This document shows, one piece after another, positions 118 through 13,446 of a stretch of 64,000 bases of DNA. The notes below the pieces were generated by a model that was given only the letters and a program-made list of their open reading frames with translations, did not search any database and had not been told where the DNA came from. Each line of letters begins with the position of its first letter. Positions within the stretch are counted from its first letter, which is position 1. The translations under genes were made by a program, and so were the position numbers. Source of the DNA: Cyclobacteriaceae bacterium (GTDB lineage: Bacteria; Bacteroidota; Bacteroidia; Cytophagales; Cyclobacteriaceae); assembly GCA_016787665.1 (NCBI GenBank), contig JAEUUC010000001.1:1-64000 (forward strand). Reading direction: 5' to 3'.

Positions 118-133
118 TTTAGATATGCGCCAC

Positions 134-295
134 AACGTTTGTGTTTATGCAGTGCGGGGAATAGGAGGGCTAAAAAATGTAGCGCAGCGAAATGTTTAGC
201 CTGACCAGTACGTCTCTGTCCCCCGACACTGAACTAAATTAAGAAAATACTTTTAATACTTACACCAAACCCCCGCATTGCATAAACATGTTGTT
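134..295 (-). repeat. attC-like cassette site 1 (long class, 162 bp)
   Basis: Bounded by AAC on the left and GTT on the right. Inner arms TGTTTATGCAGTGCGGGG and CCCCGCATTGCATAAACA pair except for one G-T. The spacer between AAC and arm is 5 nt (GTTTG), and between arm and GTT 4 nt (TGTT). An extra hairpin (GGCTAAA with TTTAGCC) sits between AGGAG and GACC. A minus-strand TAATTTAG at 234-241 resembles a -7 promoter box. Confidence 0.8.
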
Positions 296-311
296 ACCGC
301 CAGTGCCCATT

Positions 312-1208
312 TCATTGTCCATCGATACTTTGAGTCCACCAATTAAAATTGTCGGAGATAATTATTTCATGTTTCTCCAAATGATGTGTCGTTTTCATCG
401 GAGTTGTCCTGAAGTCCAAATTGTATTTGTAAGCTAGATGACGTATTTCAGAAGTGTCGTCATACGTTAGCATGTACTTGCCTTTAAGCTTTGATGTCAA
501 GTAGAATAGTTTTTCGTGGTCAATGTCAAAGTGGGTATATAGTCGTTTACCAGCAACCGTATAAGGAGGGTCGATAAAAAAATATGCACTTTTATTGTCT
601 ATGTATTCGGCTAAGATTTCAAAGGCATCACCTTTTATAAAATCCATTTTGTTTTTTACAAAGTCGATTGCAACAATCCTGTCATGTAAAGTTTGAGGAT
701 ACCAGCGTGAAGAAATTCCCTTTCCATTCTCCCCGTTTTTTATCATTCCCGAACCCTTGGCGAGAATCCCTCCATGAAAAATTCGATTCTTTAGAATGGT
801 GCAGAATGCAATGTCATTTATGTTTTTATTAGGTTTATCTAATTCTTTCTTAACGTTCTCATGAGTGAGGTCAAACTTTAAAATCTTTTCTGCAAGCCAT
901 TTGTTTTTACCTGTCAAAATTACTTCCCAAACAGCAGCAATTTCTTCATCCATTTCAACCATTGTTATGTGGCTGGCTAACTTTTCAAATGCGGCTGTTA
1001 AACTTACAATGCCCCCACCAGCAAAGGGTTCAATCAATAGATTAGCTTGGGTTCCATTTTGCTTTAACCATTGCCGAACGATAGGAATTAACCATGTCTT
1101 TCCGCCTGGATATCTAAATGGACTTCGTTGAGGAACCGAAGCGACATTTACTATTGTATTCGCTGGTATACTGTTGCCAACTTCAAATATGGTAAGTTGG
1201 CTTTTCAT
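312..1208 (-). CDS. DNA adenine methyltransferase (D12 class, Dam-like), cassette-borne
   Basis: 298 aa. The motif FRYPGGK near residue 31 is the AdoMet-binding motif X of D12-class N6-adenine methylases. EPFAGGG near residue 60 is motif I, and the catalytic motif IV is DPPYT near residue 213. It should methylate adenine in a short target. It overlaps the stop of the upstream restriction gene (1205-2083) by 4 bp, so the two are translationally coupled and form a type II restriction-modification pair in one cassette. The methylase comes second in the transcript. The gene ends about 17 nt from the GTT junction at 293, leaving little spare sequence, as is typical of compact cassettes. The recognition site cannot be read from the sequence. 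Confidence 0.88.
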   Translation of the reverse strand: MKSQLTIFEVGNSIPANTIVNVASVPQRSPFRYPGGKTWLIPIVRQWLKQNGTQANLLIEPFAGGGIVSLTAAFEKLASHITMVEMDEEIAAVWEVILTGKNKWLAEKILKFDLTHENVKKELDKPNKNINDIAFCTILKNRIFHGGILAKGSGMIKNGENGKGISSRWYPQTLHDRIVAIDFVKNKMDFIKGDAFEILAEYIDNKSAYFFIDPPYTVAGKRLYTHFDIDHEKLFYLTSKLKGKYMLTYDDTSEIRHLAYKYNLDFRTTPMKTTHHLEKHEIIISDNFNWWTQSIDGQ

Positions 1209-2083
1209 TCGACTACAATATTTTCGTTGTCCGGGTCAGCCTTTCCAGCTCTCTTTGCGTCAAGTTTCTTCTGAAGCAATTCAGTAAACTCTTTTATTGA
1301 GCCAGCTTCAAACTTTGCAATTTGCTCTAAAGCCTTAGCAAACTTTGTATAAACTATCCTTTGTAGTTTTAATTCTAAAGTTTTGCTCTTCGTTGGAACG
1401 AGGTCATATAAGAAAAAGGCGAAATCAGATTCTGATTTGTCGAATTCGGGTAAATCTGGAAGGGTTTTATAAAAACTTGTTTGAAGTGCAACGACCTGTT
1501 TCTTTTTCCATTGTTTAAGAATTGAACCTTTAGCAATTATCTGAGGAATAAGTCTTTTCCTAGAAGATGAAAGGTAGTCTGGTTTAGGAAATTTGAATGC
1601 TTGAGTCCATGTAAAGCTCGGTGAAGGCTCTTCTAAGTAAGCTGTAAATGGTCCAGTTAAATTTCCGGAAATGTAAACTGCTTGAACCTCTAATGAGCCA
1701 AAGTCAACTACCCGACCTTTGTCGTCATAAGAAACAAGAACATAGTCGATGTTCCCCGCTGATTTACCATGCTTGTCCTTTAAGCGGACTTCACCCACAT
1801 GTGTCCATGTAGCTTTTTTGTCAAAGATGAAGCTTGCTGCATCGCTAATAATACTCCAATCCTCTCTAAATCTAATTGGGCAAATGATAACCGGCTTTTC
1901 CTTGTGATTTAAACTGCAAACACCTAAAGGAAATTCAATGCTATTCTTGGTGCAATTCGAAACAATGTTATTGAATGGACAAAGCTTGTTTTCTCTGTAA
2001 CGGTTTGCTCTTGCCGACTCATTATTTATCGGAAACCCAAAGACTTCTGCTAGCGGCTGGTTGGGTGCTTTTTCTTCAATCAT
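1205..2083 (-). CDS. NotI-like type II restriction endonuclease, cassette-borne
   Basis: 292 aa. The N-terminal part has the pattern FGFPINN, then CPF, then CTKNS, then PLGVCS, then ICPIRFRED. Cysteines near residues 35, 44, 56 and 69 resemble the Fe-Cys4 site reported for the NotI family (Pfam RE_NotI). A central GxIDYVLVSYD followed by DFGSLEVQAVYISG fits a PD-(D/E)xK nuclease core. The downstream coupled adenine methylase supports a restriction role. The 156-nt leader between the start and the cassette junction at 2242 is longer than for other cassettes and could hold its own promoter: TAAATTTG, a perfect -7 box, lies just before the start codon. Cleavage specificity is not inferable; an 8-bp NotI-type site is only possible. 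Confidence 0.75.
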   Translation of the reverse strand: MIEEKAPNQPLAEVFGFPINNESARANRYRENKLCPFNNIVSNCTKNSIEFPLGVCSLNHKEKPVIICPIRFREDWSIISDAASFIFDKKATWTHVGEVRLKDKHGKSAGNIDYVLVSYDDKGRVVDFGSLEVQAVYISGNLTGPFTAYLEEPSPSFTWTQAFKFPKPDYLSSSRKRLIPQIIAKGSILKQWKKKQVVALQTSFYKTLPDLPEFDKSESDFAFFLYDLVPTKSKTLELKLQRIVYTKFAKALEQIAKFEAGSIKEFTELLQKKLDAKRAGKADPDNENIVVE

Positions 2084-2239
2084 CCTTCAAATTTAGTCAA
2101 ATCTCGCAGTTTTTTCCACCCGAATTTGTCCGGCACCCAATTCTTTAAGGTCTGATTGTCAACCGTTTAATTTCTTGTCTGCGGAACTCAATCTTTCAGA
2201 TTTTGTCGTCACTGTCCGCGGACTCGGGGCATTGGCGGT

Positions 2240-2402
2240 AACGTTTGGGTTTGGGCAGTGGCGGGCTTAGGAGGCCTTAGCAATGGAGCATCGCGGAATG
2301 CTAAGGCCGACCAGGTCGTCACTGTCTACCGTGGGCAAACGTTGTAGCGAAGATAACACTTTATGTTTACACATCACCCCGCCATTGACCAAACCTGGTG
2401 TT
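2240..2402 (-). repeat. attC-like cassette site 2 (long class, 163 bp)
   Basis: AAC at 2240-2242 and GTT at 2400-2402. Arms GGTTTGGGCAGTGGCGGG and CCCGCCATTGACCAAACC pair with two non-Watson-Crick positions. The inner hairpin is GGCCTTAGCA with TGCTAAGGCC, bracketed by AGGAG and GACC. A minus-strand TATCTTCG at 2348-2355 is a candidate -7 box. About 90 percent identical to site 3 at 2954-3114, suggesting recent duplication. Confidence 0.85.
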
Positions 2403-2416
2403 GGTGGCCGTATTTT

Positions 2417-2932
2417 TCAACTCGATCCCAATAAGAAGTGTATTGTCTTAAGGGCACTTATTGCGTGTCGCCCCCAGTGTTTTTCAAAACCGAATTTCAT
2501 GTCCCACACTGCGTCTTCCTTGCTCGCCATAGTCCCGAGGTCAAAAATCATAAGTCCATATTTCATGTCCTTATAAATATCGCCAAGGTCGTCAACCAAA
2601 TCTCCACATACCGCCTCGGTGTCCTTTTCGTTCGTAGGATCGAAAACCTCCCAATAGTATCGATTTTGTCCAACCTTGTCAGCAATTACACTAAGTATCT
2701 TATCGAATTCCTCTTTTGATAATTTATCTTTAAATTCTTCTTCGTGTTCTAAGGTTGTCCAAGGGAGATTCGTTGCATTTAGATACAGTGTCAACAATAA
2801 GGACTGAAGTTTTCTTAGATATTCTATGTCAGTCGTGTCCGTTGATTCGATGAAAGCACAATAGTTTCTCGCAGTCAGCAAGAAGTCCTTTGTTTCTTTT
2901 AATTCAATAACTTTTTCGATCGAAGAATCCAT
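2417..2932 (-). CDS. DUF5063 family protein, cassette-borne
   Basis: 171 aa, acidic and helical, without signal peptide. It shows the features I associate with DUF5063: NYCAFIE near the N-terminus, LLLTLYLNATNLP in the middle, YYWEVFDP, then GDLVDDLGDIYKDMKYGL and a C-terminal FEKHWGRHAISALKTIH. The family has no established function that I know of; members are cytoplasmic. The start codon is 22 nt from the junction at 2956 and the stop 15 nt from the opposite GTT, so the gene fills the cassette completely. Transcription must therefore come from the preceding repeat or from read-through. Confidence 0.75.
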   Translation of the reverse strand: MDSSIEKVIELKETKDFLLTARNYCAFIESTDTTDIEYLRKLQSLLLTLYLNATNLPWTTLEHEEEFKDKLSKEEFDKILSVIADKVGQNRYYWEVFDPTNEKDTEAVCGDLVDDLGDIYKDMKYGLMIFDLGTMASKEDAVWDMKFGFEKHWGRHAISALKTIHFLLGSS

Positions 2933-2953
2933 TGTCCAAAAAATATAGCCACC

Positions 2954-3114
2954 AACGTTTGGGTTTGGGCAGTGGCGGGCTTAGGAGGCCTTAGCAATGG
3001 AGCATCGCGAAATGCTAAGGCCGACCAGGTCGTCACTGTCCGCATTGGGTAAACGTTGTAGCGAAGATAAACTTTATTGTACACATCACCCCGCCATTGG
3101 CCAAACCTGGTGTT
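2954..3114 (-). repeat. attC-like cassette site 3 (long class, 161 bp)
   Basis: AAC at 2954-2956 and GTT at 3112-3114. Near-copy of site 2 with the same arms and the same AGGAG-hairpin-GACC insert. TATCTTCG at 3062-3069 on the minus strand is a candidate -7 box. The cassette between sites 2 and 3 has complementary ends over 18 bp (GTTGGTGGC at the start), differing only at positions 10-11. Confidence 0.85.
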
Positions 3115-3129
3115 GTGCGTCCGTAGTTT

Positions 3130-3435
3130 TCAAAGTCCCAAATGTCGAGCGATGACTCTCTCTAACTCTCCAATGTCTGAGATGTTAAAGTCTCCTGCTG
3201 GCTCGTGAGGATAGTCGTCAGTCTCTTTTGAATTCTCCAACGCTACATAAAAGTCATTGTCCCCGTACACAGAAATATACACCAAGTGTTTTTCTTCATT
3301 GTCTGCAAGTCCGATTGCATTTAAGTCTTCGTCCCAGTGGTCTTTTATTTTAAAATTGTCTTTTCCAAACTTGTCCGTCATGTGTCGAACTACTGACTTA
3401 ATTTTGTCGTCTTTGTTTAATTTTTTATAGCTCAT
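3130..3435 (-). CDS. Hypothetical cassette protein (101 aa)
   Basis: Small soluble charged protein beginning MSYKKLNKDDKIKSVV. I chose the ATG at 3435 over an in-frame ATG at 3459, because the latter would start exactly on the recombination junction. The start is then 25 nt inside, like the neighbouring cassettes. The sequence has an internal HLVYISVYGDNDFYVALE beta segment and a C-terminal helix. I do not recognise a family. It could be an immunity or toxin-related small protein as in other integron cassettes, but nothing in the sequence shows that. Confidence 0.65.
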   Translation of the reverse strand: MSYKKLNKDDKIKSVVRHMTDKFGKDNFKIKDHWDEDLNAIGLADNEEKHLVYISVYGDNDFYVALENSKETDDYPHEPAGDFNISDIGELERVIARHLGL

Positions 3436-3459
3436 AATCGTCCGAAAACTATGGCGCAC

Positions 3460-3582
3460 AACGGTTAGTATTTATGACGGCTTGGGCTTTTGAAATCCAA
3501 TCCGTCCCACGAAACTAAATTAAGTAAAGAATATGAAACTACAATTTAACACTTCACCCCAAGCTGGCATAAATACAATGTT
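3460..3582 (-). repeat. attC-like cassette site 4 (short class, 123 bp)
   Basis: AAC at 3460-3462, GTT at 3580-3582. Arms GTATTTATGACGGCTTGGG and CCCAAGCTGGCATAAATAC. Pairing is broken only at two positions in the ACG versus CCA block, the same block as in sites 8, 9 and 10. It lacks the extra AGGAG hairpin. TAATTTAG at 3515-3522 on the minus strand has a TTG 19 nt upstream, a reasonable Bacteroidota promoter. Confidence 0.85.
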
Positions 3583-3608
3583 GTGGGTAGTGCCGCCTTC
3601 ACGTCACC

Positions 3609-4195
3609 TTATTCCTTAAACTTCAACGTCCCGAATGCTTGGAGTAATTGTCTCTCATTATCAGGTTGTAAGTTTCTCCCATTTATCTGCAAACGGTCAG
3701 TTCCAGAACCTTTCGTCCAGAGACTGTCGAAATAAACACCGGTCAATCCAGTTCCGGTTTGCTTTGGTTGAACAATCTTAGCTCGTTTACCGTCAATAGT
3801 CGTCCACCTACTTGTATCTTTTTTAAGTTTTTCGATGTCAACAGTGTCGACTTTGCCGTAGAATTTTAGATTGCCTTTCTCGTCTACTAAATTGACGTCA
3901 CTACCGTTAATGAATATTGATTCGTCTTCAAGTGAGTTTGAATACCAACCCAAATCAAATGATGCGGTGTCACCTTTGTCAAGTGCAATTAGTCCGACAT
4001 ACGAATCTATCCCTCTACCTTAACTTGTTTCCATGTCGGTGGTACTTGAATGGTGAAAGCTCTGAAGTCTAAAGTTGTCCAAGTGTCAGGAACTACAACC
4101 TTGTATTCTTCAAAGTTCTGTTTTTTTGTCTCTTGGTTCTGTCGGTCGGTACAACCCAGAACTGTGAATAGTATGATTGTTATTCGAAGTCTCAT
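3609..4195 (-). pseudogene. Frameshifted lipoprotein gene in a cassette
   Basis: Two minus-strand reading frames form one protein. The upstream part starts at 4195 with MRLRITIILFTVLGCTD, a lipoprotein signal peptide with lipobox V-L-G-C, and continues to FTIQVPPTWKQVKVEG followed by a stop at 4007. The downstream frame carries on seamlessly as IDSYVGLIALDKGDT to the stop at 3609. One extra G in the GGG run near 4012-4014 would restore a single ORF of about 196 aa. The stretch PPTWKQVKVEGIDSYVGL resembles proteins with a short membrane-associated beta domain, but I cannot name a family. Either a real inactivating deletion or a sequencing error in a short homopolymer. Confidence 0.65.
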
Positions 4196-4217
4196 CTGTC
4201 TTGGCGGCATTACCCAC

Positions 4218-4338
4218 AACGTTTGTGCTTCTGCAGTAGCGCGCTTTCGAAGCCGCGTCCTGTCCCCGAAACCAAACGCTGAACGAAGATAACACTTATA
4301 GCTTACACCTCACCGCGCTATTGCAGAAGCATTTTGTT
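4218..4338 (-). repeat. attC-like cassette site 5 (short class, 121 bp)
   Basis: AAC at 4218-4220, GTT at 4336-4338. Arms TGCTTCTGCAGTAGCGCG and CGCGCTATTGCAGAAGCA pair except for one G-T. Compared with site 12, arm differences are compensated on the opposite arm. TATCTTCG at 4284-4291 (minus) is a candidate -7 box. The preceding cassette has ends complementary over 15 bp with only position 11 mismatched. Confidence 0.88.
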
Positions 4339-4349
4339 GGCAGCCGTTT

Positions 4350-4847
4350 CTAATTTTCTTCAATCGCGTGTCCGATACTTTTAAAATATTCTCTCAATCT
4401 TTCGAATACTTTAGAGTCTGTCTTGATAGTATTAAAGTGTTCGTCCTCCACTCGGTCGCATGAAAGACAAATATTTAAGATAGACACAACTTTGTCCGAC
4501 TTGTCATAAAACACAATCATCTCTCTGAAAATTGGTGCGCACATCGAGTCATTATGGTTTTTATAGTCCAATGACAATATTGATAATAATTCAACTGTCT
4601 CAGGGTCCGATTTATTAAAAGTGTTTGTCCGTACAGCTGTCGGATGGGGTGTTCCAGTTTCAATTAAAATTTCCTTTGTCCCCCGTATTGTCAGGTCGAT
4701 TAGTTTTCTTTTTTCATTTTTATCTAGAGTCGTCTTTGCCTTCGTCTGCAAATTGTCAACGTAGTCCTTTGTCTCTTCCTCTCTAAGAAGAGAAAATGTC
4801 TTTATGTAGTCAAAGTCCACTTCTCTAATGTATTCTTTTGTCGTCAT
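4350..4847 (-). CDS. Hypothetical cassette protein (165 aa)
   Basis: Starts MTTKEYIREVDFDYIKTFS at 4847; an in-frame ATG at 4928 lies inside the attC-like repeat and is rejected. The start is 24 nt from the junction. The protein is soluble and charged, predicted helical in the N-terminal half, with a beta-type core REMIVFYDKSDKVVSILNIC followed by LSCDRVEDE. The C-x2-C spacing (NICLSC) could bind a metal or be coincidental. The final helix is FERLREYFKSIGHAI. I do not recognise a family. Confidence 0.65.
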   Translation of the reverse strand: MTTKEYIREVDFDYIKTFSLLREEETKDYVDNLQTKAKTTLDKNEKRKLIDLTIRGTKEILIETGTPHPTAVRTNTFNKSDPETVELLSILSLDYKNHNDSMCAPIFREMIVFYDKSDKVVSILNICLSCDRVEDEHFNTIKTDSKVFERLREYFKSIGHAIEEN

Positions 4848-4870
4848 GTTGTCGGGTAGAAATGGCTGCC

Positions 4871-4991
4871 AACGTTTGTGTTTGCGCAGTGGTGGCTTAT
4901 TGAAACCGCGTCCTATCCACGTGGGCAAACGTAATATAAAAACTAAACTTCATACCTTGATATCCCGCCACCATTGCGCAAACATTCTGTT
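4871..4991 (-). repeat. attC-like cassette site 6 (short class, 121 bp)
   Basis: AAC at 4871-4873, GTT at 4989-4991. Arms TGTTTGCGCAGTGGTGGC and CCACCATTGCGCAAACA, with the standard G-T at the CAGTG/CATTG step. Minus-strand TATATTACG at 4930-4938 is in the usual promoter position. The preceding cassette ends pair GTTGGCAGCC with GGCTGCCAAC and then resume after the position-11 mismatch. Confidence 0.85.
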
Positions 4992-5007
4992 GTGGGCTGG
5001 CAGGCTG

Positions 5008-5418
5008 TCATAGGTTATTTACAATTACCTGTCCCTTTACCCATTCAATCATCTGTCGTCTCTTGAAGTCAAACCATTTTTGTCTGAAGGGTCCCGATTG
5101 ATCAACCTCAAATTTGAAATTTCTAAAAGGTCCCGGTTTACTTAATGCTTCCTCAAATCTGTTCTTTAGTCTAGCGTCCCCAACCGTCTCAATAAAATTC
5201 GTCATTAGTCGAAATGATTCGTTGGTGTCCATCTTTTCAATTTCAACATATTTCTCAAAGTCGTTAACCTCGTTAAGTACTTTGTTCCAATATTTAAAGT
5301 TGTCCTCGTGTTCGTCAATGTCCAGCACAGTTACAATTTTCTTTTCTTGTCGGTGTACGAAACATCGTAGTCCGGAGTCCAGGTTGTCCGCGAGCTCAAC
5401 TATTTGTTCGTCAGTCAT
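5008..5418 (-). CDS. UPF0158 family protein, cassette-borne
   Basis: 136 aa from the ATG at 5418 (MTDEQIVELADNLDSGLRCF). The layout matches the UPF0158 family: an N-terminal helix-strand unit ending in DSGLRCFVHRQEKKIVTV, a central SFRLMTNFIETVGDARL helix, then RFEEALSKPGPFRNFKFEV and a C-terminal WFDFKRRQMIEWV. No molecular function is established for the family as far as I know. Cytoplasmic. Start is 33 nt from the junction at 5451; stop is 16 nt from the GTT at 4991. Confidence 0.75.
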   Translation of the reverse strand: MTDEQIVELADNLDSGLRCFVHRQEKKIVTVLDIDEHEDNFKYWNKVLNEVNDFEKYVEIEKMDTNESFRLMTNFIETVGDARLKNRFEEALSKPGPFRNFKFEVDQSGPFRQKWFDFKRRQMIEWVKGQVIVNNL

Positions 5419-5450
5419 AAGTTGTAGAATCTGTCCGCCTGCTTGCCCAC

Positions 5451-5610
5451 AACGTGAGTGCATATTCAGTTTGGCGGATTAGGAGCCTTGTTAAGGCCGA
5501 TAGGCCGACAAGGCGACCAAGTTGAAATCTGTCCCACGTGACAAATGTAAATAATGAAACTGAAACTTAATGAGGACACCGAGCCCGCCAAATTGAATAT
5601 GCACATTGTT
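5451..5610 (-). repeat. attC-like cassette site 7 (long class, 160 bp)
   Basis: AAC at 5451-5453, GTT at 5608-5610. Arms GTGCATATTCAGTTTGGCGG and CCGCCAAATTGAATATGCAC pair over 20 bp with a single G-T. The extra hairpin GCCTTGT with ACAAGGC is bracketed by AGGAG and GACC. Minus-strand TACATTTG at 5542-5549 matches the -7 consensus TAnnTTTG exactly. Confidence 0.88.
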
Positions 5611-5990
5611 GGCAACCGTTGGGCCTTCGTCCGTTATTGTCACACGTTTCTTAGTCTTTTCCAGTCGATTGTTTTGAAGTCGGCCAGTTGTCCACTGTCA
5701 ACGAAGCCCAACTCCATATTTAAAGAGTCGATTTCGTTTTTTTATTTTCGAGTTCACCGTTACTGTCAGCGGAAACGAAATTTAGTCCACGTGTTGCGTC
5801 CCGATTGTTATCGGGATGTCCACGGACTCTGAATTTCCTTTCAGTCCTTTTGTTTTTGAATTTTTCTCCACCGTCTACGGAAATGGAATTTGTCCACGTG
5901 TTGTAAACTGTCAGCGGAGCCTTTTGAATTTTTGTCGACCGAATTTGTCGGCTTACACGTCTCTGTCCACGAGCCGGCCCAATGGTTGCC
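5611..5990. other. Non-coding cassette body A (about 380 bp)
   Basis: Lies between sites 7 and 8 and has cassette ends complementary over 18 bp (GTTGGCAACC at the start) with one mismatch at position 11. No convincing ORF: frames are short, low in complexity and start inside repeats. It shares aligned blocks along its whole length with cassette 7093-7465, including CCTTCGTCCGTTATTGTC near the left end and TCAACGAAGCC further in. A palindrome TCCCGATTGTTATCGGGA lies at 5799-5816. Rich in TGTC on the plus strand. It may encode an RNA or be the remnant of a gene. Confidence 0.6.
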
Positions 5991-6152
5991 AACGTTGGTG
6001 CATGTGACGTATTGCGGCATAGGAGCTAAAGCCTAATGAGGAACGAATGGCTTTAGCGACCTGCTGCGTTTTGTCCCACGACACCGAACGAAATTAAGAA
6101 ACTAAAACTAAAATGCTACACTGAACCAGCAATATGGCACATGCACACTGTT
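5991..6152 (-). repeat. attC-like cassette site 8 (long class, 162 bp)
   Basis: AAC at 5991-5993, GTT at 6150-6152. Arms GTGCATGTGACGTATTGC and GCAATATGGCACATGCAC mismatch only in the ACG versus CCA block. Extra hairpin GCTAAAGCC with GGCTTTAGC between AGGAG and GACC. Minus-strand TAATTTCG at 6089-6096. Read on the minus strand the flanking core is GTTAGGT at the cassette start, a perfect match to the classical integron core GTTRRRY. Confidence 0.88.
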
Positions 6153-6174
6153 AGGTGCTGGCCGCTTCCCTCAT

Positions 6175-6909
6175 CTATTGAATTGGTCCAATTTTCGTTT
6201 CGTACCTTGCTATTTCTTGTTCAGTATTTGTCAATAAAATGGAACAAAATGTTTCTAATTGGATATTCTTGTGTCCCTTAGTCCTTGTTATTTCTAGAAG
6301 TCTCTTTAGTCCTTCATTAACAATAAGTTTAGCGTTTTCAAAAGTAAAACAGGCAAATCTCCATTCAACACCTACACCTAATTCCGGATGAGTAACTGCT
6401 TGTCCAACGTCACTTTTTGGATGAATAGCCATATCTCGAAATCTAAATATTTCCTTGATTGACTGTTTTAAAATCTTTGTTCCTTCATTCTTAATTTTGA
6501 AACCAAGTCTAATGGTTTCTGAAATCTGAATATGTCTAGCGGTTCTATTGTTTTTCCATTTGTCCGCTAAGTCCACTGGGATTTTAATCTTGCTTTTAAT
6601 TGAAGCATAAAAGGAGTCGTACGCTATGGCAATTGCAATGATTGCTTGCATTGAGTGCTCAAATTCTTTTTCCAAAGTCTGAGATTTTAAAATATTGTCA
6701 GAGGTTTTCCATGCATCCCGTCTTTTTACACTCCATTCTTTCGCTTGTTCTAGGTGGTCAACAGAAAGTTTAAGCCACGCTGGACAAATGTCATAGTGTA
6801 GACTCAGTGTAACTTTCATTTCAGTCTCTCCCTTTTCGTTGAGGGAGATAACCAAGTCACCCGGTTTTATTATTGGGGTAATTCCTTTTGAAATAAAAAT
6901 TCCTCCCAT
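6175..6909 (-). CDS. Hypothetical cassette protein with possible HEPN-like motif (244 aa)
   Basis: Soluble, mostly helical protein beginning MGGIFISKGITPIIKPGDLV. The segment IFRFRDMAIHPKSD near residue 160 contains R-x4-H, the signature spacing of HEPN RNases, set in a helical context after a long N-terminal helical domain (EHSMQAIIAIAIAYDSFYA). HEPN proteins often act as toxins or defence effectors, but the match is one motif and is inference only. The start is 60 nt from the junction at 6969 and the stop 23 nt from the GTT. No partner antitoxin is visible. Confidence 0.65.
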   Translation of the reverse strand: MGGIFISKGITPIIKPGDLVISLNEKGETEMKVTLSLHYDICPAWLKLSVDHLEQAKEWSVKRRDAWKTSDNILKSQTLEKEFEHSMQAIIAIAIAYDSFYASIKSKIKIPVDLADKWKNNRTARHIQISETIRLGFKIKNEGTKILKQSIKEIFRFRDMAIHPKSDVGQAVTHPELGVGVEWRFACFTFENAKLIVNEGLKRLLEITRTKGHKNIQLETFCSILLTNTEQEIARYETKIGPIQ

Positions 6910-6968
6910 GATTTTATTGTTGTCGTCCGTTGAAACTCAGTTGTCAACTCTGTCCGCGGCTTGCACCT

Positions 6969-7092
6969 AACGACCAGTGTTTATGACGGCTGCGGCTTTC
7001 GAAGCCGTTATTGTCCACCGTTGCGGAAGCTAATTTAAGAGAACAAAACTACAATTCAACCTATCGCCCGCAGCTGGCATAAACACGCTGTT
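6969..7092 (-). repeat. attC-like cassette site 9 (short class, 124 bp)
   Basis: AAC at 6969-6971, GTT at 7090-7092. Arms GTGTTTATGACGGCTGCGG and CCGCAGCTGGCATAAACAC, mismatched only at the ACG/CCA block. It contains a small GGCTTTCGAAGCC hairpin in place of the long-class insert. Minus-strand TAAATTAG at 7030-7037 is the promoter-position element. The preceding cassette core on the minus strand reads GTTAGGT and ACCTAAC, the classical integron pair. Confidence 0.88.
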
Positions 7093-7465
7093 GTGGCCTG
7101 TTGGCCTTCGTCCGTTATTGTCACACGTCTCTTAATTTTTCTTATCGATTAGTTTGAAGTCGATCAGTTGTCTCCAGTCAACGAAGCCAACTCTATATTT
7201 TTTGAGTCAATGTCATTTTCATTTTTTTTCAAGTCCACCGGTACTGTCAGCGGACTCAAATCTTGCCTGCCTGTCGGCAGACAGGTCCACCGATGAATTG
7301 TCCTCGGACACGAATTTTCCTCTCTGTCATTTTATTTCTCTGCGGAGATGTATCGTGTCCACGAGTTCTAAATGTCAGCGCAGAAGTCAAACGTCTTTTG
7401 AATTTTTGTCAGGCAGAATTTTTCAGTTACACATCACTGTCCACCGAGCCAGGCCAATTGGCCAC
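7093..7465. other. Non-coding cassette body B (about 370 bp), paralogue of body A
   Basis: Cassette between sites 9 and 10, with ends GTTGTGGCC and GGCCACAAC plus the TG/AA mismatch at positions 10-11. The best reading frames are short and cross the repeat boundaries, so I call no gene. It is homologous to body A (5611-5990) along its length but carries a different palindrome, around 7266-7285 (CCTGCCTGTCGGCAGACAGG), at roughly the equivalent place. Both palindromes resemble the short dispersed palindromes common in Cytophagales genomes (recalled, not searched). Confidence 0.6.
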
Positions 7466-7588
7466 AACGTTTCGTGTTTATGACGGCTGCGGTTTTCGAA
7501 GCCGTCTTTGTCCCCCGTGGGTGAACGAAATTAATAAAACCAAACTACATTTCACACTATCACCCGCAGTTGGCATAAACACGGTGTT
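7466..7588 (-). repeat. attC-like cassette site 10 (short class, 123 bp)
   Basis: AAC at 7466-7468, GTT at 7586-7588. Arms GTGTTTATGACGGCTGCGG and CCGCAGTTGGCATAAACAC. Very like site 9 in sequence. Minus-strand TAATTTCG at 7526-7533 sits in the promoter position. Confidence 0.88.
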
Positions 7589-7812
7589 AGCTGTAGTTGG
7601 CCTGTCTGGGTACGGGTGCGATGAACTGTCCAACGAAGTGCGCAAAAATATCGAACTCGTTGATAACGGCTCAGATGAAATGCGCACTATCGCGCGGTCG
7701 GGCGGGGGGACGGGTGAGGTGAATTGTCCTACAAGGTGCGCCAAAGGATCGTGATCGTTGATGAATTCTCTATGAAAGATAAACTGTCTGTGGGTCGGGG
7801 CCAATTACAGCT
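7589..7812. other. Non-coding cassette body C (about 225 bp)
   Basis: Shortest cassette. Its ends are complementary over 17 bp (GTTAGCTGTA at the start, TTACAGCTAAC at the end) with only position 11 mismatched. It includes a G-rich run and several TGTC words. No ORF with an initiation codon at the expected distance from the junction is visible on the minus strand. It may specify a small RNA or be a decayed gene. Confidence 0.55.
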
Positions 7813-7973
7813 AACGTTGGTGCATATGACGTTGCCGGGAAAGGAGCCAAAGTAAATGAGCGTAGCGAAATGACTTTGGCGACCTGCCGTCTTTGTCCCA
7901 CGTGAACAGACGTTGTTAAGTAACGAAACTACAAATAAACCCGAACCCCGGCAATGGCCATATGCACACTGTT
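7813..7973 (-). repeat. attC-like cassette site 11 (long class, 161 bp)
   Basis: AAC at 7813-7815, GTT at 7971-7973. Arms GTGCATATGACGTTGCCGG and CCGGCAATGGCCATATGCAC with a 3-versus-4 nt internal bubble. Extra hairpin GCCAAAGT with ACTTTGGC between AGGAG and GACC. The promoter position holds TAACAACG (minus, 7911-7918), the weakest match of the set. Confidence 0.85.
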
Positions 7974-7986
7974 GGGCGCTGTTTTG

Positions 7987-8424
7987 CTAATCGTGAAATA
8001 CAATTAGTCCGTAATGTCCAACGTCATGTCCCTCTTCAAATGTCGCAGCTATTATGTCGATACGATACTCAGCCGTAAATGGTGGTTTAAATGTCACAAT
8101 GGCGTTTGGTTTAACTTCTTCATCTTTCTCAACTAATGACCATTGGTTGTTGACCCATTTGTAAACTTTAATGTCAATGTCTTTAATACGAAAGTCTCCA
8201 AAAGCCAAAATGCCATACTCAAAATCTGCCGTCAGAGTTCGGAATGTCGATTTCGATGTTTGAACAATGTCGAACTCCATTCTTACAATTTCTTGTCCCA
8301 ATTCCATTTCAATTTTTTTTGCCAAGGTTCCAGCGTCAGACAGAATTGCCGCCATTGTCAATTCTTCTTTTTGTCCAAATGCAAAACATGGTACAAGTAA
8401 AATTGTCAAAAGAATATTTCTCAT
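7987..8424 (-). CDS. Hypothetical exported cassette protein (145 aa)
   Basis: The ATG at 8424 gives MRNILLTILLVPCFAFGQKEE, a clear signal peptide with likely cleavage after FAFG; an ATG farther upstream (8529) lies inside the repeat and is rejected. The mature protein has a helical start (ILSDAGTLAKKIEMELGQEIV), then a beta-rich body (GILAFGDFRIKDIDIKVYKWV) ending in GHYGLIVFHD. It is probably periplasmic or surface exposed. No family recognised. The start is 54 nt from the junction at 8479 and the stop 14 nt from the GTT at 7973. Confidence 0.65.
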   Translation of the reverse strand: MRNILLTILLVPCFAFGQKEELTMAAILSDAGTLAKKIEMELGQEIVRMEFDIVQTSKSTFRTLTADFEYGILAFGDFRIKDIDIKVYKWVNNQWSLVEKDEEVKPNAIVTFKPPFTAEYRIDIIAATFEEGHDVGHYGLIVFHD

Positions 8425-8478
8425 GATTTTATTCGTTTTATGTCCATTGTCTAATTTGTCACTAGCAAAATTGCGCCC

Positions 8479-8601
8479 AACGTTTGTGTTTCTGCAGTGG
8501 TGCGCTTCCGAAGCCGCGTATTGTCCCACGAAACCAAACGTGGAACGAAGATAAAAACTTATAGCTTACACGTCACCGCACCATTGCAGAAACATTTTGT
8601 T
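8479..8601 (-). repeat. attC-like cassette site 12 (short class, 123 bp)
   Basis: AAC at 8479-8481, GTT at 8599-8601. Arms TGTTTCTGCAGTGGTGCG and CGCACCATTGCAGAAACA with one G-T. It is the sister of site 5, and every arm difference between them is compensated. TATCTTCG at 8546-8553 (minus). The preceding cassette core on the minus strand is GTTGGGC / GCCCAAC, matching the integron core consensus. Confidence 0.88.
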
Positions 8602-9403
8602 AGCGGCTGGCTCGCTTCTCGGTCGTCTTATAAAAGTTACAAAAATCAGTCACGCCACATAGTTCACATTTAGGATTTGTCTCCAGACAGATACCTCCTT
8701 TTATTTTAAACATGTCGCTGGTACCTTGTTGTCCGTACTTAACAAATATGATGTCCACGTACCTAATTGGCTTCTTTGTCGCCTCTGAAAATTTACGTCC
8801 TTGAATAACTGTCTTTAATAGTTGTTTTTCATTTTCAATTAGTCCAAGTCGTTTAAAAATTCTTGCTAATACTCTGTCTGGTTTTATTGCGTTTAATCCT
8901 ATGTCAGTTAGAAAATGATAAACCGTTATTCCGCCTAAATAGTCAAACTTATACTCTAATTCTTCTTTGAGTAACATTAGATTTTCAAAAGAGTCGTTTG
9001 GTGAAAACTTGTCGATATAGTTTTGAAAAGTCCCGTTCTCTTTAACTATTTCTTCAAATGTCCTTGCGTTGTTAACTGTCGCTGAAATTTTCCCTTGATT
9101 CTTAATCATGTCTTTGTCTGACATAATTTTCTCTATTCCACTTTTGTCAATTCGTGAAACTGTTTTGTAGTCGGGGAAATGTTTATTGATTATAGGTTCT
9201 TTTTTCTCAACCGTCACCGCTTTAAACCCTGAGTAGAATACAATCATTTTAAGAATGTCGAAGTACTCGTCATCTGTTCTTTGTCTGAAGGATTGGTTGT
9301 AAAATCTTGAGTAGACTTGTTCAAATTCCTTCTCGGTCAAATCTGTCAGCCGTTTTAAGGAGTTCTCAACTCTGTCAAATATGTCTTTGTAGTTGTCTGT
9401 CAC
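8600..9403 (-). CDS. HhH-GPD base-excision DNA glycosylase with Fe-S type cysteines (TagI/Nth-like), cassette-borne
   Basis: 267 aa. The C-terminal CLETNPKCELCGVTDFC has the C-x6-C-x2-C-x5-C spacing of the [4Fe-4S] loop of endonuclease III-type glycosylases. The N-terminal half (YSGFKAVTVEKK, then HFPDYKTVSRI, then ISATVNNARTFEEIV) recalls 3-methyladenine glycosylase I, and GGITVYHFLTDIGLNAIKPDRVLARIF is the helix-hairpin-helix and catalytic-Asp region. Predicted to remove a damaged or modified base. It is the cassette nearest the recombinase. Its stop codon TAA is formed from the recombination core (CGCTAAC), so the gene ends exactly on the junction. Start 34 nt from the AAC at 9437. Confidence 0.78.
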   Translation of the reverse strand: MTDNYKDIFDRVENSLKRLTDLTEKEFEQVYSRFYNQSFRQRTDDEYFDILKMIVFYSGFKAVTVEKKEPIINKHFPDYKTVSRIDKSGIEKIMSDKDMIKNQGKISATVNNARTFEEIVKENGTFQNYIDKFSPNDSFENLMLLKEELEYKFDYLGGITVYHFLTDIGLNAIKPDRVLARIFKRLGLIENEKQLLKTVIQGRKFSEATKKPIRYVDIIFVKYGQQGTSDMFKIKGGICLETNPKCELCGVTDFCNFYKTTEKRASR

Positions 9404-9436
9404 TTTATTGTCTGGTTGTTCCGCGAGCTTGCCGCT

Positions 9437-9548
9437 AACGTATGTGCTTGTGCAATTGAATGTATTTTATTTATGGCATTTCCGCAACCAAAACCCCCAA
9501 AAAAGCCCTCAAGGGCCCTAAAATCGCGGATATATTTTTTGTGCAGTT
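9437..9548 (-). other. Candidate array-end site (attI-like) between array and recombinase
   Basis: AAC at 9437-9439 closes the last cassette, whose ends pair as GTTAGCGGC/GCCGCTAAC with TG/AA at positions 10-11. The following sequence begins like a repeat (GTATGTGCTTGTGCAATTG) but no right arm follows. Instead, the near-identical words TTGTGCAATT (9448-9457) and TTGTGCAGTT (9539-9548) form a direct repeat flanking about 80 bp and reaching the recombinase stop codon. An unfolded site with direct repeats beside the integrase is what an attI would look like. Inference only. Confidence 0.4.
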
Positions 9549-10719
9549 AGTCATCCCCCCGCAACTTCTTCGATTGCACAATCTGGTCAAGCGGGCTCAC
9601 AACCTTATCCAACCCAAACCGCGTAACCTGGGCGTAAATCTCGGTGGTCTTCGGGCTTTCATGCCCCAGCAACACCTGTATGTAACGGGTCGAGGTGCCC
9701 CCCTCCAGCAGGTGCGTAGCAAAAGAATGCCGCAACATGTGCAGGTGCACATGCTTACGAATGCCCGCCCCGGCTGCCGCCTGCTTCAGCACCGCCTGCA
9801 AACTCGTTTCGCTGTAACGCTGCCCGCGCTGCCCCTCAAAAAGCCAAAGGGCCGGCTCGTACTTAGCCAGGTACTCGCGCAAGAACGGCACCAGGCTGGC
9901 CGCTAATACACTCTGCCGGTCCTTTCTGCCCTTGCCTCCCCGAATAAATACCAGGTGGCGGTCCAGATCCACATCGCCTGTGCGCAACGCCAGCAGCTCA
10001 CTTCGCCTCAACCCGGCCGAGTAAATCACCATTAGCATCACGCGGTGTTTCAGATTACCGGCAGCCTCGAACAGCGCCATAATCTCCTGCTGACTCAATA
10101 CCTGCGGCAACTTCTTCTCTTTCATCGGGCGCTCCAGGTAATACACCTTCTTCTCCTGCTTCAGCACCTTCTCGTAAAAAAACTTAATGGCGTTAATGGC
10201 CTGGTTCTGCGTACTCTTCGCCACCTTCTTCTTGTCCACCAGGTACAGCAGGTAAGCCTGAATTTCATCTTCCCCCAAATCAGCCGGGTGGCTGCCTGGG
10301 AAAAAGCGCATAAACAAACTGAACTGATCCAGGTACGTTTTTTGGGTTGAAGCCGAGTAGCCCTTCAATTTTAGTTTTTGCTCAATCAGCCGTAAAGCCT
10401 GTAGCTGATCGGGGTGGGGCGTAGCTTCGCGAATGTTCGTGACGCGCGCAATCGACTTATCGCCAGCGTCTGCTTTGGGCTCAGCTGCCGGTTGGCTGCG
10501 CAGCGCATGTATATCCAGGTAGGCTTTGTCTTTAAACAATCGGAATAATTCCTTCAGCCGGTTGGGTGTGTCGTTAATGTACCAGCATCGGTGTGTCGCA
10601 CTGAAACGCGCATCGGGTATCGTTCGCACCAATTTCATTAACACCTCGTCTTTCGGGAAGCGAAGCGCCAAACGCGGTTCATTGCGGTGAAAAAGCTTCT
10701 CAACTTTAATCGTAATCAT
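9547..10719 (-). CDS. Tyrosine recombinase at the end of the cassette array
   Basis: 390 aa from the ATG at 10719 (MITIKVEKLFHRNEPRLALR). An upstream in-frame start at 10854 would add a low-quality stretch through a GC-rich palindrome. Residues 1-85 form an extra domain with FSATHRCWYIND. Residues about 105-195 are the SAM-like core-binding domain (GYSASTQKTYLDQF and STQNQAINAIKFFYEKVL, close to integron IntI wording). The catalytic domain has R in AGLRRSELL, K in GGKGRKD, HMLRH, LLGHES and the nucleophile in EIYAQV. All R-K-H-R-H-Y residues are present. The roughly 20-residue insertion that IntI carries between the lysine strand and the HxxR box is absent. It is read in the same direction as the cassettes, so it probably acts on the flanking repeats. 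Confidence 0.88.
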   Translation of the reverse strand: MITIKVEKLFHRNEPRLALRFPKDEVLMKLVRTIPDARFSATHRCWYINDTPNRLKELFRLFKDKAYLDIHALRSQPAAEPKADAGDKSIARVTNIREATPHPDQLQALRLIEQKLKLKGYSASTQKTYLDQFSLFMRFFPGSHPADLGEDEIQAYLLYLVDKKKVAKSTQNQAINAIKFFYEKVLKQEKKVYYLERPMKEKKLPQVLSQQEIMALFEAAGNLKHRVMLMVIYSAGLRRSELLALRTGDVDLDRHLVFIRGGKGRKDRQSVLAASLVPFLREYLAKYEPALWLFEGQRGQRYSETSLQAVLKQAAAGAGIRKHVHLHMLRHSFATHLLEGGTSTRYIQVLLGHESPKTTEIYAQVTRFGLDKVVSPLDQIVQSKKLRGDD

Positions 10720-10736
10720 GATTAAAATCAGATCAG

Positions 10737-10744
10737 CGAATATA
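10737..10744 (-). promoter_or_regulatory. Candidate -7 box for the recombinase
   Basis: Minus-strand TATATTCG about 18 nt upstream of the start codon. It resembles the TATCTTCG and TAATTTCG boxes inside the attC-like repeats. Confidence 0.4.
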
Positions 10745-10792
10745 ATGAATAAAATACCTCCAGGTGTGGCCGAGTTGTCCATTAAAAGTGGG

Positions 10793-10836
10793 CAGCCCCG
10801 CCCCGCCTTGCGGGGCGGCCGGGCTTTGCGGGGCTG
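10793..10836. repeat. GC-rich nested palindrome upstream of the recombinase
   Basis: Outer arms CAGCCCCGC and GCGGGGCTG enclose an inner CCCCGCC-TTG-CGGGG hairpin. The composition differs sharply from the AT-rich array and the segment marks the boundary between array and chromosome. It could be a dispersed palindromic repeat or a transcription barrier. The 10837-10899 stretch has nothing further recognisable. Confidence 0.6.
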
Positions 10837-10899
10837 TCGGTGCTGCGCACCCACGCTTCGCGCGGCCCCTTCAATCCCTGGCTGAGGTCAGTCCTCAAA

Positions 10900-10926
10900 A
10901 CTGAGCCAGCAAAGCGCGGGCTGGCT
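10900..10926 (-). terminator. Stem-loop at the end of the barrel-protein gene
   Basis: TGAGCCAGC and GCTGGCTCA form a perfect 9-bp stem that starts at the stop codon of the 10926-11612 gene; a short TTTT run follows on the minus strand. Confidence 0.55.
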
Positions 10927-11612
10927 CACTTGCCCGTTAAAATCACACCCAGCGAAAACTCAAGGCCAGTCAAATCAATGCGCGCATCCGCGTAGTCAAT
11001 CGGCAGTGTTTCCACAGCCAGGCCGCTAAAGCCCGTGTAACTCCCCGAAAGCGGAAAACGCGAACTGCCCATCAGGTAGTTCACCTCGAAGCTGATACCA
11101 AATTGCCGGGCCACATACCACGTCAACTCAATGCCGGCATGGTAGCCAAACCCCAACTTGCTCTGCCCGGTTAACTGTCCATCGGCCAGTTGCCAGCCCG
11201 TAAAGTCGCGCATGGCTTCGTCAAAGTTTCCATAATTGATTTTCTGATCAAACCCGTAAAACGCAAAGCCGCCCGCCTTGATGTCAAACTTCACTTGTTC
11301 TCCGGGAAACTGCAACACTAGTTCCAGCGGAACAAACACCGTGAAGTTAGGGCCCACCAGCGGCTTCTTCGATTCAAATGGCAATTCAATCACGTTCAGG
11401 CCGGCCATGCGGTAAAGCGAAAAACCGGTTTCAATGGCGATGTAGTCATTCAGATCAACCCCCACACCGCGCACGCTGAACGGACTGATAGGCGTGGAAA
11501 AATACCCGTTGCGCGGAATAAAATAGGAAAAGGATAACCCGACTTCCTGCGCCCAGGCACCCAGGGTTGTTGTCATCACCAGAATAACGGTGGCGATATG
11601 CTTTTTACTCAT
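10926..11612 (-). CDS. Outer-membrane beta-barrel protein, hypothetical (228 aa)
   Basis: Signal peptide MSKKHIATVILVMTTTLGAWAQ, cleaved after AWA. The rest alternates hydrophobic and polar residues in strands of 9-12 residues rich in glycine and aromatics (VKFDIKAGGFAFYGF, GFGYHAGIELTWYVA, QFGISFEVNYLMG) and ends in a typical barrel strand, GLEFSLGVILTGK. Probably a small 8-strand outer-membrane porin-like protein. No specific family recognised. Upstream region to 11745 is shared with the divergent amidohydrolase. Confidence 0.65.
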   Translation of the reverse strand: MSKKHIATVILVMTTTLGAWAQEVGLSFSYFIPRNGYFSTPISPFSVRGVGVDLNDYIAIETGFSLYRMAGLNVIELPFESKKPLVGPNFTVFVPLELVLQFPGEQVKFDIKAGGFAFYGFDQKINYGNFDEAMRDFTGWQLADGQLTGQSKLGFGYHAGIELTWYVARQFGISFEVNYLMGSSRFPLSGSYTGFSGLAVETLPIDYADARIDLTGLEFSLGVILTGK

Positions 11613-11745
11613 GCCAGTATTTTTTTGGCAAGGTAATCAGGTTCGGCTCAGCGTGCCATCCATCCGGCCCCGTGCGCGCTAACATCTTTTGTTTTGCCAA
11701 TCGGGTAAAAACGGTGTTACTTCGGTTCTTAATAATCATTTCCCT

Positions 11746-13446
11746 ATGCGGCTCTGCCTTTTCCTGCTACTCCTTCTTTTCGCTTCTGCCTGCCAGAAAA
11801 AAAATCCCCCGGCCGATAAAATCTTTCTCGGAGGTACCATCTACACGGTGAATGAAGCCCAACCTACGGCCGAAGTAGTGGCTATCGCGGGTGATAGCAT
11901 TGTGTTTGTTGGCTCCCGGCAGGATGCCGAAGCGTGGCGTGGCGCCAATACAGAAGTAGTGGACCTGGGCGGCCGCACGCTTACCCCCGGCTTCATCGAA
12001 ACACACGGCCACATTATGGGGCTGGGTTACAACGAACTCAACCTGGACCTGATGGATGTAAAAAGCTATGAGGAGCTGGTGGAGCGGGTGCGGCAGGCCG
12101 TAAGCAAAGCGCAGCCCGGCCAGTGGATTGTGGGCCGCGGGTGGCACCAGGATAAGTGGGATACCAAGCCTACCAAAATGGTTAAGGGTTTCCAGACGCA
12201 CGAATTGCTAAGCTCCGTGTCGCCCGATAACCCGGTGTACCTTCGCCATGCCAGTGGCCATGCCGGCTTTGCCAACGCCAGGGCCATGCAGATGGCCGGA
12301 GTGAATCAACTCTCCGTTGAACAATTGCGCGAGGCGAACTCGGAAGGCGGGGAAATCATACGCGATGACCTGGGCAACCCCACGGGTATTTTCAACGAAC
12401 GGGCGCAAAGCCTGATCACCCGTTTTATTCCCGAATCGACTACCGAGAGCGATACACAGGCATTGGAACTGGCCATGCAGGCCTGCGCCCGCAATGGCAT
12501 CACCAGCTTTCACGATGCAGGCGCCTCGCGTGCCAACATCGATTTGTTTCATCAGTTCAAAGCCGAGGGTAAACTCACCACTAACCTCTACGTCATGATT
12601 ACCGGCTTTGACAGCGACCTTATTTACGAGTGGCTACACAAGGGCCGCGAAGTTGATCCGCGTGGCAACCTCACCATACGGGCCATAAAACTGAACTGCG
12701 ATGGTGCACTGGGTTCGCGCGGGGCCTGGCTGCTGGAAGAATACACCGATCGGCCCGGCTTTTTTGGCATGGCTACGTTGCCGATGGATACGGTGATGAA
12801 AATTTCGCGCGAAGGATTGAAGAGCGGCTTCCAGGTGTGCGCGCACGCCATTGGCGATCGCGCCAATAAGGAAATTCTCGACCGCTACGAAATCGCCTTT
12901 GCCGAGAACCCCCAACCGGACCACCGCTTTCGCATCGAGCACGCGCAGCACATGCGCGGTGTGGATATTCCGCGTTTTGGGCAACTGAACGTTATCGCGG
13001 CTGTGCAGGCCAATCACCTCAGCAGCGACCGCCCCTGGGCGATTGACCGGCTGGGGGAGAAGCGCATTAAAGAAGGCGCTTACATGTGGCAATCGTTGCT
13101 GAAGTCGGGTGCCAAAGTGATCAACGGAACGGATGTGCCGGTGGAGCCGGTGAACCCGATGAATAGTTTTTATGCCTCCGTTACGCGCAAAACATTGAAG
13201 GGTGAGCCGGAAGGCGGCTATGAGCCGGAGGAAAAAATGACCCGCGAGCAAGCACTGCGCTCCTATACACTCGATGCCGCCTTTGGCGCATTTGAAGAAA
13301 AAATCAAAGGCTCACTGGAAGTTGGCAAGCGTGCCGATTTCACCGTGTTTTCGAAAGACATCATGACCGTGGCCGAGCCGGAAATCTTAACCACCGAAGT
13401 GGTGATGACGGTGATTGGCGGCAAGGTGATTTATGAGAAGAAGTAA
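11746..13446 (+). CDS. YtcJ-like metal-dependent amidohydrolase, lipoprotein
   Basis: 566 aa from the ATG at 11746. The start gives MRLCLFLLLLLFASACQ, a lipoprotein signal with lipobox A-S-A-C, so the enzyme is anchored in the cell envelope. Family motifs of amidohydrolase_3 follow: FLGGTIYTVN near the N-terminus, TPGFIETHGH (metal-binding HxH), HDAGAS mid-protein, CAHAIGDRANKEIL, RIEHAQH, and a C-terminal GTDVPVEPVNPM and GSLEVGKRADFTVFS. The family hydrolyses amide or ester-like bonds on unknown substrates. A start at 11689 would precede the signal peptide and is rejected. Confidence 0.88.
   Translation: MRLCLFLLLLLFASACQKKNPPADKIFLGGTIYTVNEAQPTAEVVAIAGDSIVFVGSRQDAEAWRGANTEVVDLGGRTLTPGFIETHGHIMGLGYNELNLDLMDVKSYEELVERVRQAVSKAQPGQWIVGRGWHQDKWDTKPTKMVKGFQTHELLSSVSPDNPVYLRHASGHAGFANARAMQMAGVNQLSVEQLREANSEGGEIIRDDLGNPTGIFNERAQSLITRFIPESTTESDTQALELAMQACARNGITSFHDAGASRANIDLFHQFKAEGKLTTNLYVMITGFDSDLIYEWLHKGREVDPRGNLTIRAIKLNCDGALGSRGAWLLEEYTDRPGFFGMATLPMDTVMKISREGLKSGFQVCAHAIGDRANKEILDRYEIAFAENPQPDHRFRIEHAQHMRGVDIPRFGQLNVIAAVQANHLSSDRPWAIDRLGEKRIKEGAYMWQSLLKSGAKVINGTDVPVEPVNPMNSFYASVTRKTLKGEPEGGYEPEEKMTREQALRSYTLDAAFGAFEEKIKGSLEVGKRADFTVFSKDIMTVAEPEILTTEVVMTVIGGKVIYEKK

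Follow-up and report, generated by a model that had tools for sequence, protein, structure and literature searches.

The window, a stretch of 64,000 nucleotides from a Cyclobacteriaceae bacterium, carries a tyrosine recombinase (integrase) gene at 9547-10719 on the minus strand, with the start codon at 10719 and the end of the stop codon at 9547. The sequence-only reading had placed the gene correctly. The product of 390 amino acids comprises an N-terminal domain (residues 1-79; 10483-10719), a SAM-like core-binding domain (residues 113-189; 10153-10383; Pfam PF13495) and a catalytic domain (residues 207-366; 9622-10101; Pfam PF00589), all encoded on the minus strand. The catalytic set of R238, K263, H327, R330, H353 and Y362 is invariant across 16 aligned members, and the earlier statement that no catalytic residue is missing holds. 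So does the resemblance of the core-binding domain to IntI: the best solved relative by sequence is VchIntIA (PDB 2a3v, E 8e-44). VchIntIA is also the top structural match of the predicted integrase (Foldseek E 9e-17), followed by XerA. The best NCBIfam model was the integron integrase TIGR02249 with 221 bits, under its cut-off of 265 bits. The XerC and XerD equivalog models also stayed under their cut-offs (177.9 of 335 and 175.1 of 330 bits).

The insertion specific to IntI is absent, as the sequence-only reading had noticed. In a MAFFT alignment, the stretch from the GGKG lysine motif to H-x-L-R-H has 71 residues in the window integrase and 113 residues in 31 of 31 canonical IntI, IntI1 counted. 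All 52 family rows, including the window enzyme, have 71-76 residues. The stretch spans 74-82 residues in six Xer-like controls and 72 residues in two rhizobial plasmid integrases. The size given for the missing part, a helix of about 20 residues, was too small; the gap amounts to about 42 residues in two blocks. The I2 helix of IntI is described as necessary for cassette capture, as conferring recombination of single strands and as unknown outside IntI, and evolutionary intermediates towards it are described as lacking (PMC7790495). The rhizobial plasmid integrases (L111, 12001-12807; L112, 12001-12804) are related to IntI and have neither the insertion nor the N-terminal domain nor detectable arrays.

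An array of hairpin sites follows on the 3′ side of the integrase gene. The site detector searched for AAC, an arm, the complement of the arm and GTT; it was tuned on the window and favours gap-free arms. It found 12 imperfect hairpin sites between 134 and 8601, all 3′ of the integrase and identical with the 12 sites picked beforehand by eye from a repeat list. The attC-like sites on the minus strand are site 1 at the end of cassette 1 (8479-8601), site 2 (7813-7973), site 3 (7466-7588), site 4 (6969-7092), site 5 (5991-6152), site 6 (5451-5610), site 7 (4871-4991), site 8 (4218-4338), site 9 (3460-3582), site 10 (2954-3114), site 11 (2240-2402) and site 12 (134-295). Site 5 has a 97% identical copy at another place of the genome (G000:C5:413947). 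In the remaining 55 kb of the window, the detector found no site. Repeats of another kind are fifteen tandem units of 126 nt at 44890-46860, probably within a large protein on the minus strand, and repeats with a spacing of 102 nt at 49480-50071 (61-90% alike).

The array extends beyond the window. Past site 12, it continues into contig C4 (L308): the contig end is identical to the first 141 bases of the window, and this overlap falls inside the array. Joined, window and contig hold 22 sites in about 19 kb. A 23rd detector hit lies 4.5 kb further on and fails the cassette rule described below.

Cassette genes with Pfam matches encode a D12 methylase, a NotI endonuclease, DUF5063, UPF0158 and a methyladenine-glycosylase-like protein; five of ten cassette open frames tested had no Pfam match. 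The NotI-family endonuclease and the D12 adenine methylase share a two-gene cassette (315-2083, minus strand). Two cassettes, 5611-5990 and 7093-7465, are related to each other (74-92% in repeat blocks) and have no open frame of 60 amino acids in the usual direction; they may be non-coding. An Rfam search on positions 1-12000 of the window gave no match, and promoter and terminator scans gave no signal clearly over that of shuffled sequence.

An integron cassette moves as a circle with one site. Therefore, the bases that follow the crossover at the cassette start have to pair with the R″ box at the end of the same cassette. In the window, every one of the 11 adjacent pairs has an unbroken match of 5-7 bases after GTT. 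Between the two boxes of one site, the match is limited to 0-3 bases. A candidate attI is located at 9437-9500 on the minus strand, with the crossover GTT at 9439-9437 (minus-strand reading), 109 nt 3′ of the integrase. Six bases after this GTT pair with the end of cassette 1, so that 12 of 12 window cassettes obey the G^TT rule when attI is counted. In the joined array, 19 of 21 adjacent pairs keep the rule, and the two breaks are probably missed sites. At other loci (sites scoring at least 16), 63% of 95 adjacent pairs match over at least five bases, compared with 4% when both boxes belong to one site and 3% among 480 other pairs of the same arrays. Among the 41 loci listed for having a good match, the first junction, as attI candidate, lies 39-157 nt past the protein match in 27 and farther away in 14. 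The attI candidates of L166, L161, L183 and L155 have, by eye, a short palindrome 4-6 nt ahead of the first junction, as if attI were a small hairpin too.

The cassette rule is symmetric and hence blind to orientation. By comparison of the loci, the start of each cassette pairs with the R″ box that closes it, which marks the cassette as a former circle with one site. The same comparison puts the cassette boundaries at G^TT, lets the cassettes read away from the integrase and sets the first junction, the putative attI, just 3′ of the integrase gene.

The anatomy of the sites was deduced from 133 verified sites in agreement with the cassette rule (29 loci, the window among them) and from 129 more in viral contigs. 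AACA and CGTT-purine are nearly invariant. The central spacer on the L′ side is longer by 1-4 nt in 132 of the 133 sites. Nucleotide 15 after AAC is an A on L″ opposed to a G on the complement of L′ in 101 of 133; this pair is an A.C mismatch on the strand read and a T.G wobble on the opposite strand. A second conserved mismatch is located at nucleotide 11 of the R stem, with A in R′ (98-100%) and G in the complement of R″ (74-91%). The canonical R box has the consensus GTTRRRY/RYYYAAC. GTTRRRY boxes occur in 2 of 12 window sites, and in 8 of 121 and 11 of 129 sites elsewhere. Arms without gaps over 20 nt are present in 11 of 12 window sites, and a one-base bulge brings a gain of at least 3 in 23 of the 133 verified sites; the detector behind these sites has a preference for gap-free arms. 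The search next to canonical IntI gave no more than a handful of canonical attC sites, so that the presence of bulges in canonical sites rests mainly on the literature. As long as a site is part of an array, most of its R stem is mispaired; thus, excision may be weak.

The arms covary. On average, 16.0 of 20 positions pair between the arms of one site and 10.0 with arms from sites of other loci. Within arrays, own arms pair at 14-19 of 20 positions, against a mean of 11.5 with other sites of the same array. This comparison characterises the sites as imperfect hairpins, and a folded single strand is likely the substrate. The bottom strand folds better in 9 of 12 window sites, by 1.6 kcal/mol on average, a difference in folding energy that hints at the bottom strand as the one used.

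Recombination of ordinary double-stranded DNA in the manner of Xer, with palindromes that are incidental or extruded as cruciforms, would suit a core of Xer size without the single-strand adaptation known from IntI, sites without bulged bases and the second rank of XerA among the structural matches. XerC, XerD and XerA resemble the window enzyme in having a catalytic domain of about the same length without the insertion. Unlike them, the window enzyme is linked to cassette arrays and stands on a separate tree branch, and no dif site is known here. An exchange between double strands is improbable because the long arms stay complementary while their sequence varies from site to site. Moreover, the pairing of R″ with the start of its own cassette is what a site folded in the circle would give, and a double-stranded exchange needs no L″ arm. 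A precedent for folded sites served by such an enzyme is the integration of CTXphi by XerCD, in which a recombinase without I2 acts on a hairpin that imitates double-stranded DNA and has no extrahelical bases; CTXphi differs by having neither an integrase of its own nor a cassette array (PMC4792948, PMC7790495).

The enzyme family is frequent in relatives of the strain. It was detected in 103 of 291 genomes of the order at E 1e-60 and in 187 of 395 genomes of the class at E 1e-55. Named relatives are metagenome bins of Flammeovirgaceae and Cyclobacteriaceae. The open frame of the closest relative (L036, 8187-8939; 80% identical) matches residues 1-177 only, perhaps owing to a frameshift or an assembly fault. 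Altogether, 82 integrase regions were scanned, the window and 81 relatives. On the 3′ side of the integrase, 214 sites were detected in 783 kb, 12 of them in the window. The 5′ side had 15 sites in 405 kb, equal to the rate in shuffled DNA (142 in 3.83 Mb). Of the 82 loci, 40 had at least two sites 3′ of the integrase, and 2 had at least two sites 5′ of it. No 3′ site was detectable in 25 of 82 loci, and 42 of 82 had fewer than two. Many contigs end shortly past the integrase, as expected of repeats in draft assemblies; some loci had undetected or fewer than two 3′ sites despite 14 kb of sequence (L045, L051, L064, L070, L073). A plasmid copy of the integrase in Persicobacter had no site. A large array of 21 sites in G1070 has an integrase with 46% identity at its end.

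Array DNA of the window was searched in 98 genomes of the taxonomic family and matched in 29, the own genome counted. The sites make up 27% of the query, and 57 of 67 non-self matches fall within them. Thus, genera have the sites in common, but for the most part not the intervening genes.

In some genomes, sites are present and no integrase of the family was detected at the cut-offs used (e.g., G064, G211 and G280). Such cases agree with a relict array (CALIN) that owes its past mobility to a canonical IntI and has the recombinase as a neighbour by chance. This origin is very improbable for several reasons. Canonical IntI exceeds the cut-off in 1 of 395 genomes of the class (and in 105 of 395 genomes of the phylum), against 187 of 395 for the family studied here. 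The sites keep to the 3′ side of the integrase in Bacteroidia, and in viral contigs most of them are 5′ of it. This type of site is missing from canonical loci: a score of at least 16 was reached by no site at 12 canonical IntI loci, nor at five insertion-less outgroup loci (two rhizobial, three viral). The scarcity of GTTRRRY boxes in the window also speaks against IntI.

Together, cassette rule, attI position and the 3′ arrays of relatives indicate that the window integrase almost certainly serves the neighbouring repeats. The sequence-only reading held that the enzyme, if it handles folded repeats, does so in a way different from IntI. The service of the repeats stands on the same three observations; the N-terminal domain as the implied cause of the difference is not supported, as detailed below.

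Viral contigs provided a second group of relatives. The IMG/VR profile search gave at least 539 relatives, of which the best 80 were kept. Among these 80, 75 enzymes have no insertion (66-73 residues) and five are canonical (113 residues). At least two detector sites were present in 55 of these 80 loci. In 50 viral loci, mostly chosen for having sites, 181 strong sites were located in 318 kb on the 5′ side of the integrase and five in 373 kb on the 3′ side. The cassette rule applied to 86 of 134 adjacent pairs in the 50 loci. With the viral sites read in the direction leading away from the integrase, 107 of 129 verified ones have the A/G combination at nucleotide 15; the site orientation in viral contigs was taken from this mismatch and the spacers. 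Compared with Bacteroidia, the integrase gene has the reverse orientation in the viral contigs, and the direction of the array is unchanged. Next to the integrase of L226, three of six proteins tested belong to phage-type helicase, ATPase and HNH families.

Isolated phages allow a view on cassette gain. The Freya phages of Polaribacter were described with genomes of 44.0-48.9 kb, 66-78 ORFs and one integrase, taken as a sign of temperate life (PMC8776804). The literature search did not find the word ‘integron’ in what it covered of PMC8776804. The Freya enzyme is 35% identical to a viral member and only a distant relative; the trees took in no Freya enzyme. It has 271 residues, no N-terminal domain and, by eye, about 70 residues in the critical stretch. 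Six Freya records, of at least nine listed, have a common backbone of 42,063 bp in which 0-4 positions are mismatched. They differ by inserts of 0, 842, 1744, 2216, 4040 and 4635 bp just upstream of the integrase. Every insert starts in the same GTT, which precedes the integrase start codon by about 46 nt, and stops at a pre-existing GTT. The insert of Freya_2 (L327) was parsed fully into two cassettes that both follow the rule; one of them has a gene inside the hairpin of its site, with 399 nt between R″ and R′. Parsing of Freya_5, 6, 8 and 9 stopped early because boxes were imperfect or were located around a gene in a long hairpin. Freya_8 lacks a 902-bp unit common to Freya_5, 6 and 9. Cassette units seem to be lost as well as gained in these phages.

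Viral-contig enzymes, in the best 80 of at least 539, are the closest outside relatives of the window integrase, and the authors of the flavophage study regarded integrases as signs of temperate life (PMC8776804). Both facts would suit an integrase of a phage or an integrative and conjugative element (ICE) that acts at an unrelated attachment site. Such a role is extremely unlikely, since arrays and the attI junction adjoin the gene in the window and in many relatives, and the inserts in the phages adjoin the integrase and change cassette by cassette. There is good support for cassette movement through site-specific recombination at G^TT next to enzymes of this family. Cassette arrays in phages have been reported as phage-borne integrons and CALINs; those were found with IntegronFinder and attC models (PMC9892861). 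IntegronFinder asks for an IntI domain (PMC9892861), which the viral enzymes described here lack.

The phylogenetic analysis placed canonical IntI in one clade in all trees (support 99, 100 and 100/100) and the window enzyme outside this clade. The window enzyme grouped with insertion-less enzymes of Bacteroidia and viruses with a support of 96 in a quick tree of 111 rows, which is weaker evidence than the careful tree of 52 rows. With the careful tree, several deep orders of IntI, insertion-less and alphaproteobacterial enzymes were compatible: insertion-less rows as one clade (p-AU 0.30), insertion-less rows with IntI (p-AU 0.37) and all rows with the N-terminal domain together (p-AU 0.24) were not rejected. 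Consequently, I2 may have been gained in IntI or lost in the lineage studied here. The sequence-only reading had regarded a position among phage integrases acting elsewhere as an argument against its view. The grouping with phage enzymes was indeed obtained, but these enzymes have the same kind of cassette array.

An extra N-terminal part had been noticed in the sequence, and it is present: the core-binding domain begins only at about residue 113 and is preceded by a compact predicted domain. Residues 1-70 were predicted with a pLDDT of 88-95 and residues 77-98 as a disordered linker. Five strands and two larger helices make up the predicted fold. HARP, a domain of five strands and two helices that is also found in UvsW of phage T4, is counted as a DNA-binding domain specific for junctions (PMC4666394). 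A Pfam search with the window's own domain alone gave no match, HARP (PF07443) included. Six of seven relatives matched HARP with E values of 0.001-0.22, all under the gathering score of 25. The top structural alignment of the domain was T4 UvsW (Z 6.9; 2.9 Å over 66 residues), which is not significant alone. In Foldseek, the HARP domain of SMARCAL1 was ranked 2-3 without significance (E 0.16-0.2), and no match of the window domain was under E 0.1. Middling Z values of VIA-align also cover unrelated folds of ribosomal proteins and initiation factors. With the HARP domain of SMARCAL1 and the N-terminal domain of T4 UvsW, the window domain shares the predicted fold, and its relatives share a W-containing motif; it differs by the lack of a significant match and by its fusion to a recombinase. 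On this moderate evidence, the N-terminal domain looks HARP-like.

The sequence-only reading implied that this domain replaces the IntI helix. A HARP-like domain that took over the role of the helix and recognises folded sites gains some appeal from its presence in most Bacteroidia members looked at, by eye with two or three tandem copies in several. The sub-threshold HARP matches of the relatives and the folds of UvsW and SMARCAL1 point to junction-binding domains (PMC4666394), though the structural matches are not significant on their own. The replacement is unlikely in view of the enzymes that do without the domain. In the complete chromosome of L072, an open frame of 285 amino acids without it accompanies an array of six sites. 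The enzymes of L197 and L202 also lack it, and each has one site and an attI candidate. Nearly all of the best 80 of at least 539 viral enzymes start near the core-binding domain; nearly all of the 75 insertion-less ones among them lack the N-terminal domain, and yet the site signature is present at their loci. Because L072, L197, L202 and viral relatives have sites without it, the domain appears dispensable within the enzyme family. Viral and Freya enzymes without helix and N-terminal domain adjoin the same type of site or inserts at G^TT; hence, neither part seems necessary.

Sedentary chromosomal integrons with IntI, such as that of Vibrio cholerae with VchIntIA, are the nearest known system. 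They share with the window the cassette array, attI beside the integrase, imperfect hairpin sites, the G^TT boundary, cassettes that read away from the integrase and related core-binding and catalytic domains. In contrast to them, the window enzyme has no IntI insertion, the boxes are not GTTRRRY, and the sites have two conserved A.C mismatches instead of bulged extrahelical bases. In addition, the integrase gene of the window points towards the array, with attI at the 3′ end of the gene. The locus is thus integron-like in its working, yet the tests for the IntI type failed for insertion, curated model, clade, boxes and bulged bases. The locus is most likely a chromosomal cassette array of the integron type, and the integrase in charge belongs to a lineage outside the IntI clade.

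The following course of cassette capture is proposed. The integrase would capture the cassette circle in single-stranded, folded form, with the bottom strand as the probable substrate. On this strand, the two conserved mismatches would become T.G wobbles, and the helix formed by the arms would be almost continuous, in imitation of a double-stranded core site. Without bulged bases and a helix to read them, the reaction would start like an exchange by Xer or of CTXphi. One strand would be exchanged with double-stranded attI, and replication would resolve the junction. The unequal central spacers and the conserved mismatch may set the orientation. The HARP-like N-terminal domain would be an optional aid in junction binding.

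Beyond the window, we lean towards a second integron lineage that is independent of I2 and common in the class Bacteroidia and in the phages of this class, in which a minimal tyrosine recombinase of about 265-285 amino acids captures cassettes via folded sites imitating double-stranded DNA. The literature covered comprised open-access articles in PMC, few subscription papers and no preprints, and an earlier description may exist. If the proposal is true, the I2 helix would have been added to IntI later as a refinement, recombination of folded single strands having been possible before it, and much of the integron world would have escaped tools that require I2. Cassette movement without I2 in a natural family would make the origin of folded-site recombination directly testable, and the Freya phages are a ready comparison of cassette gain between isolates. 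The family would add a large reservoir of mobile genes, which in the window includes a restriction-modification pair of the NotI type. An integrase without a supposedly essential part, present across a class of bacteria and their phages, raises the question of how gene capture on folded DNA evolved.
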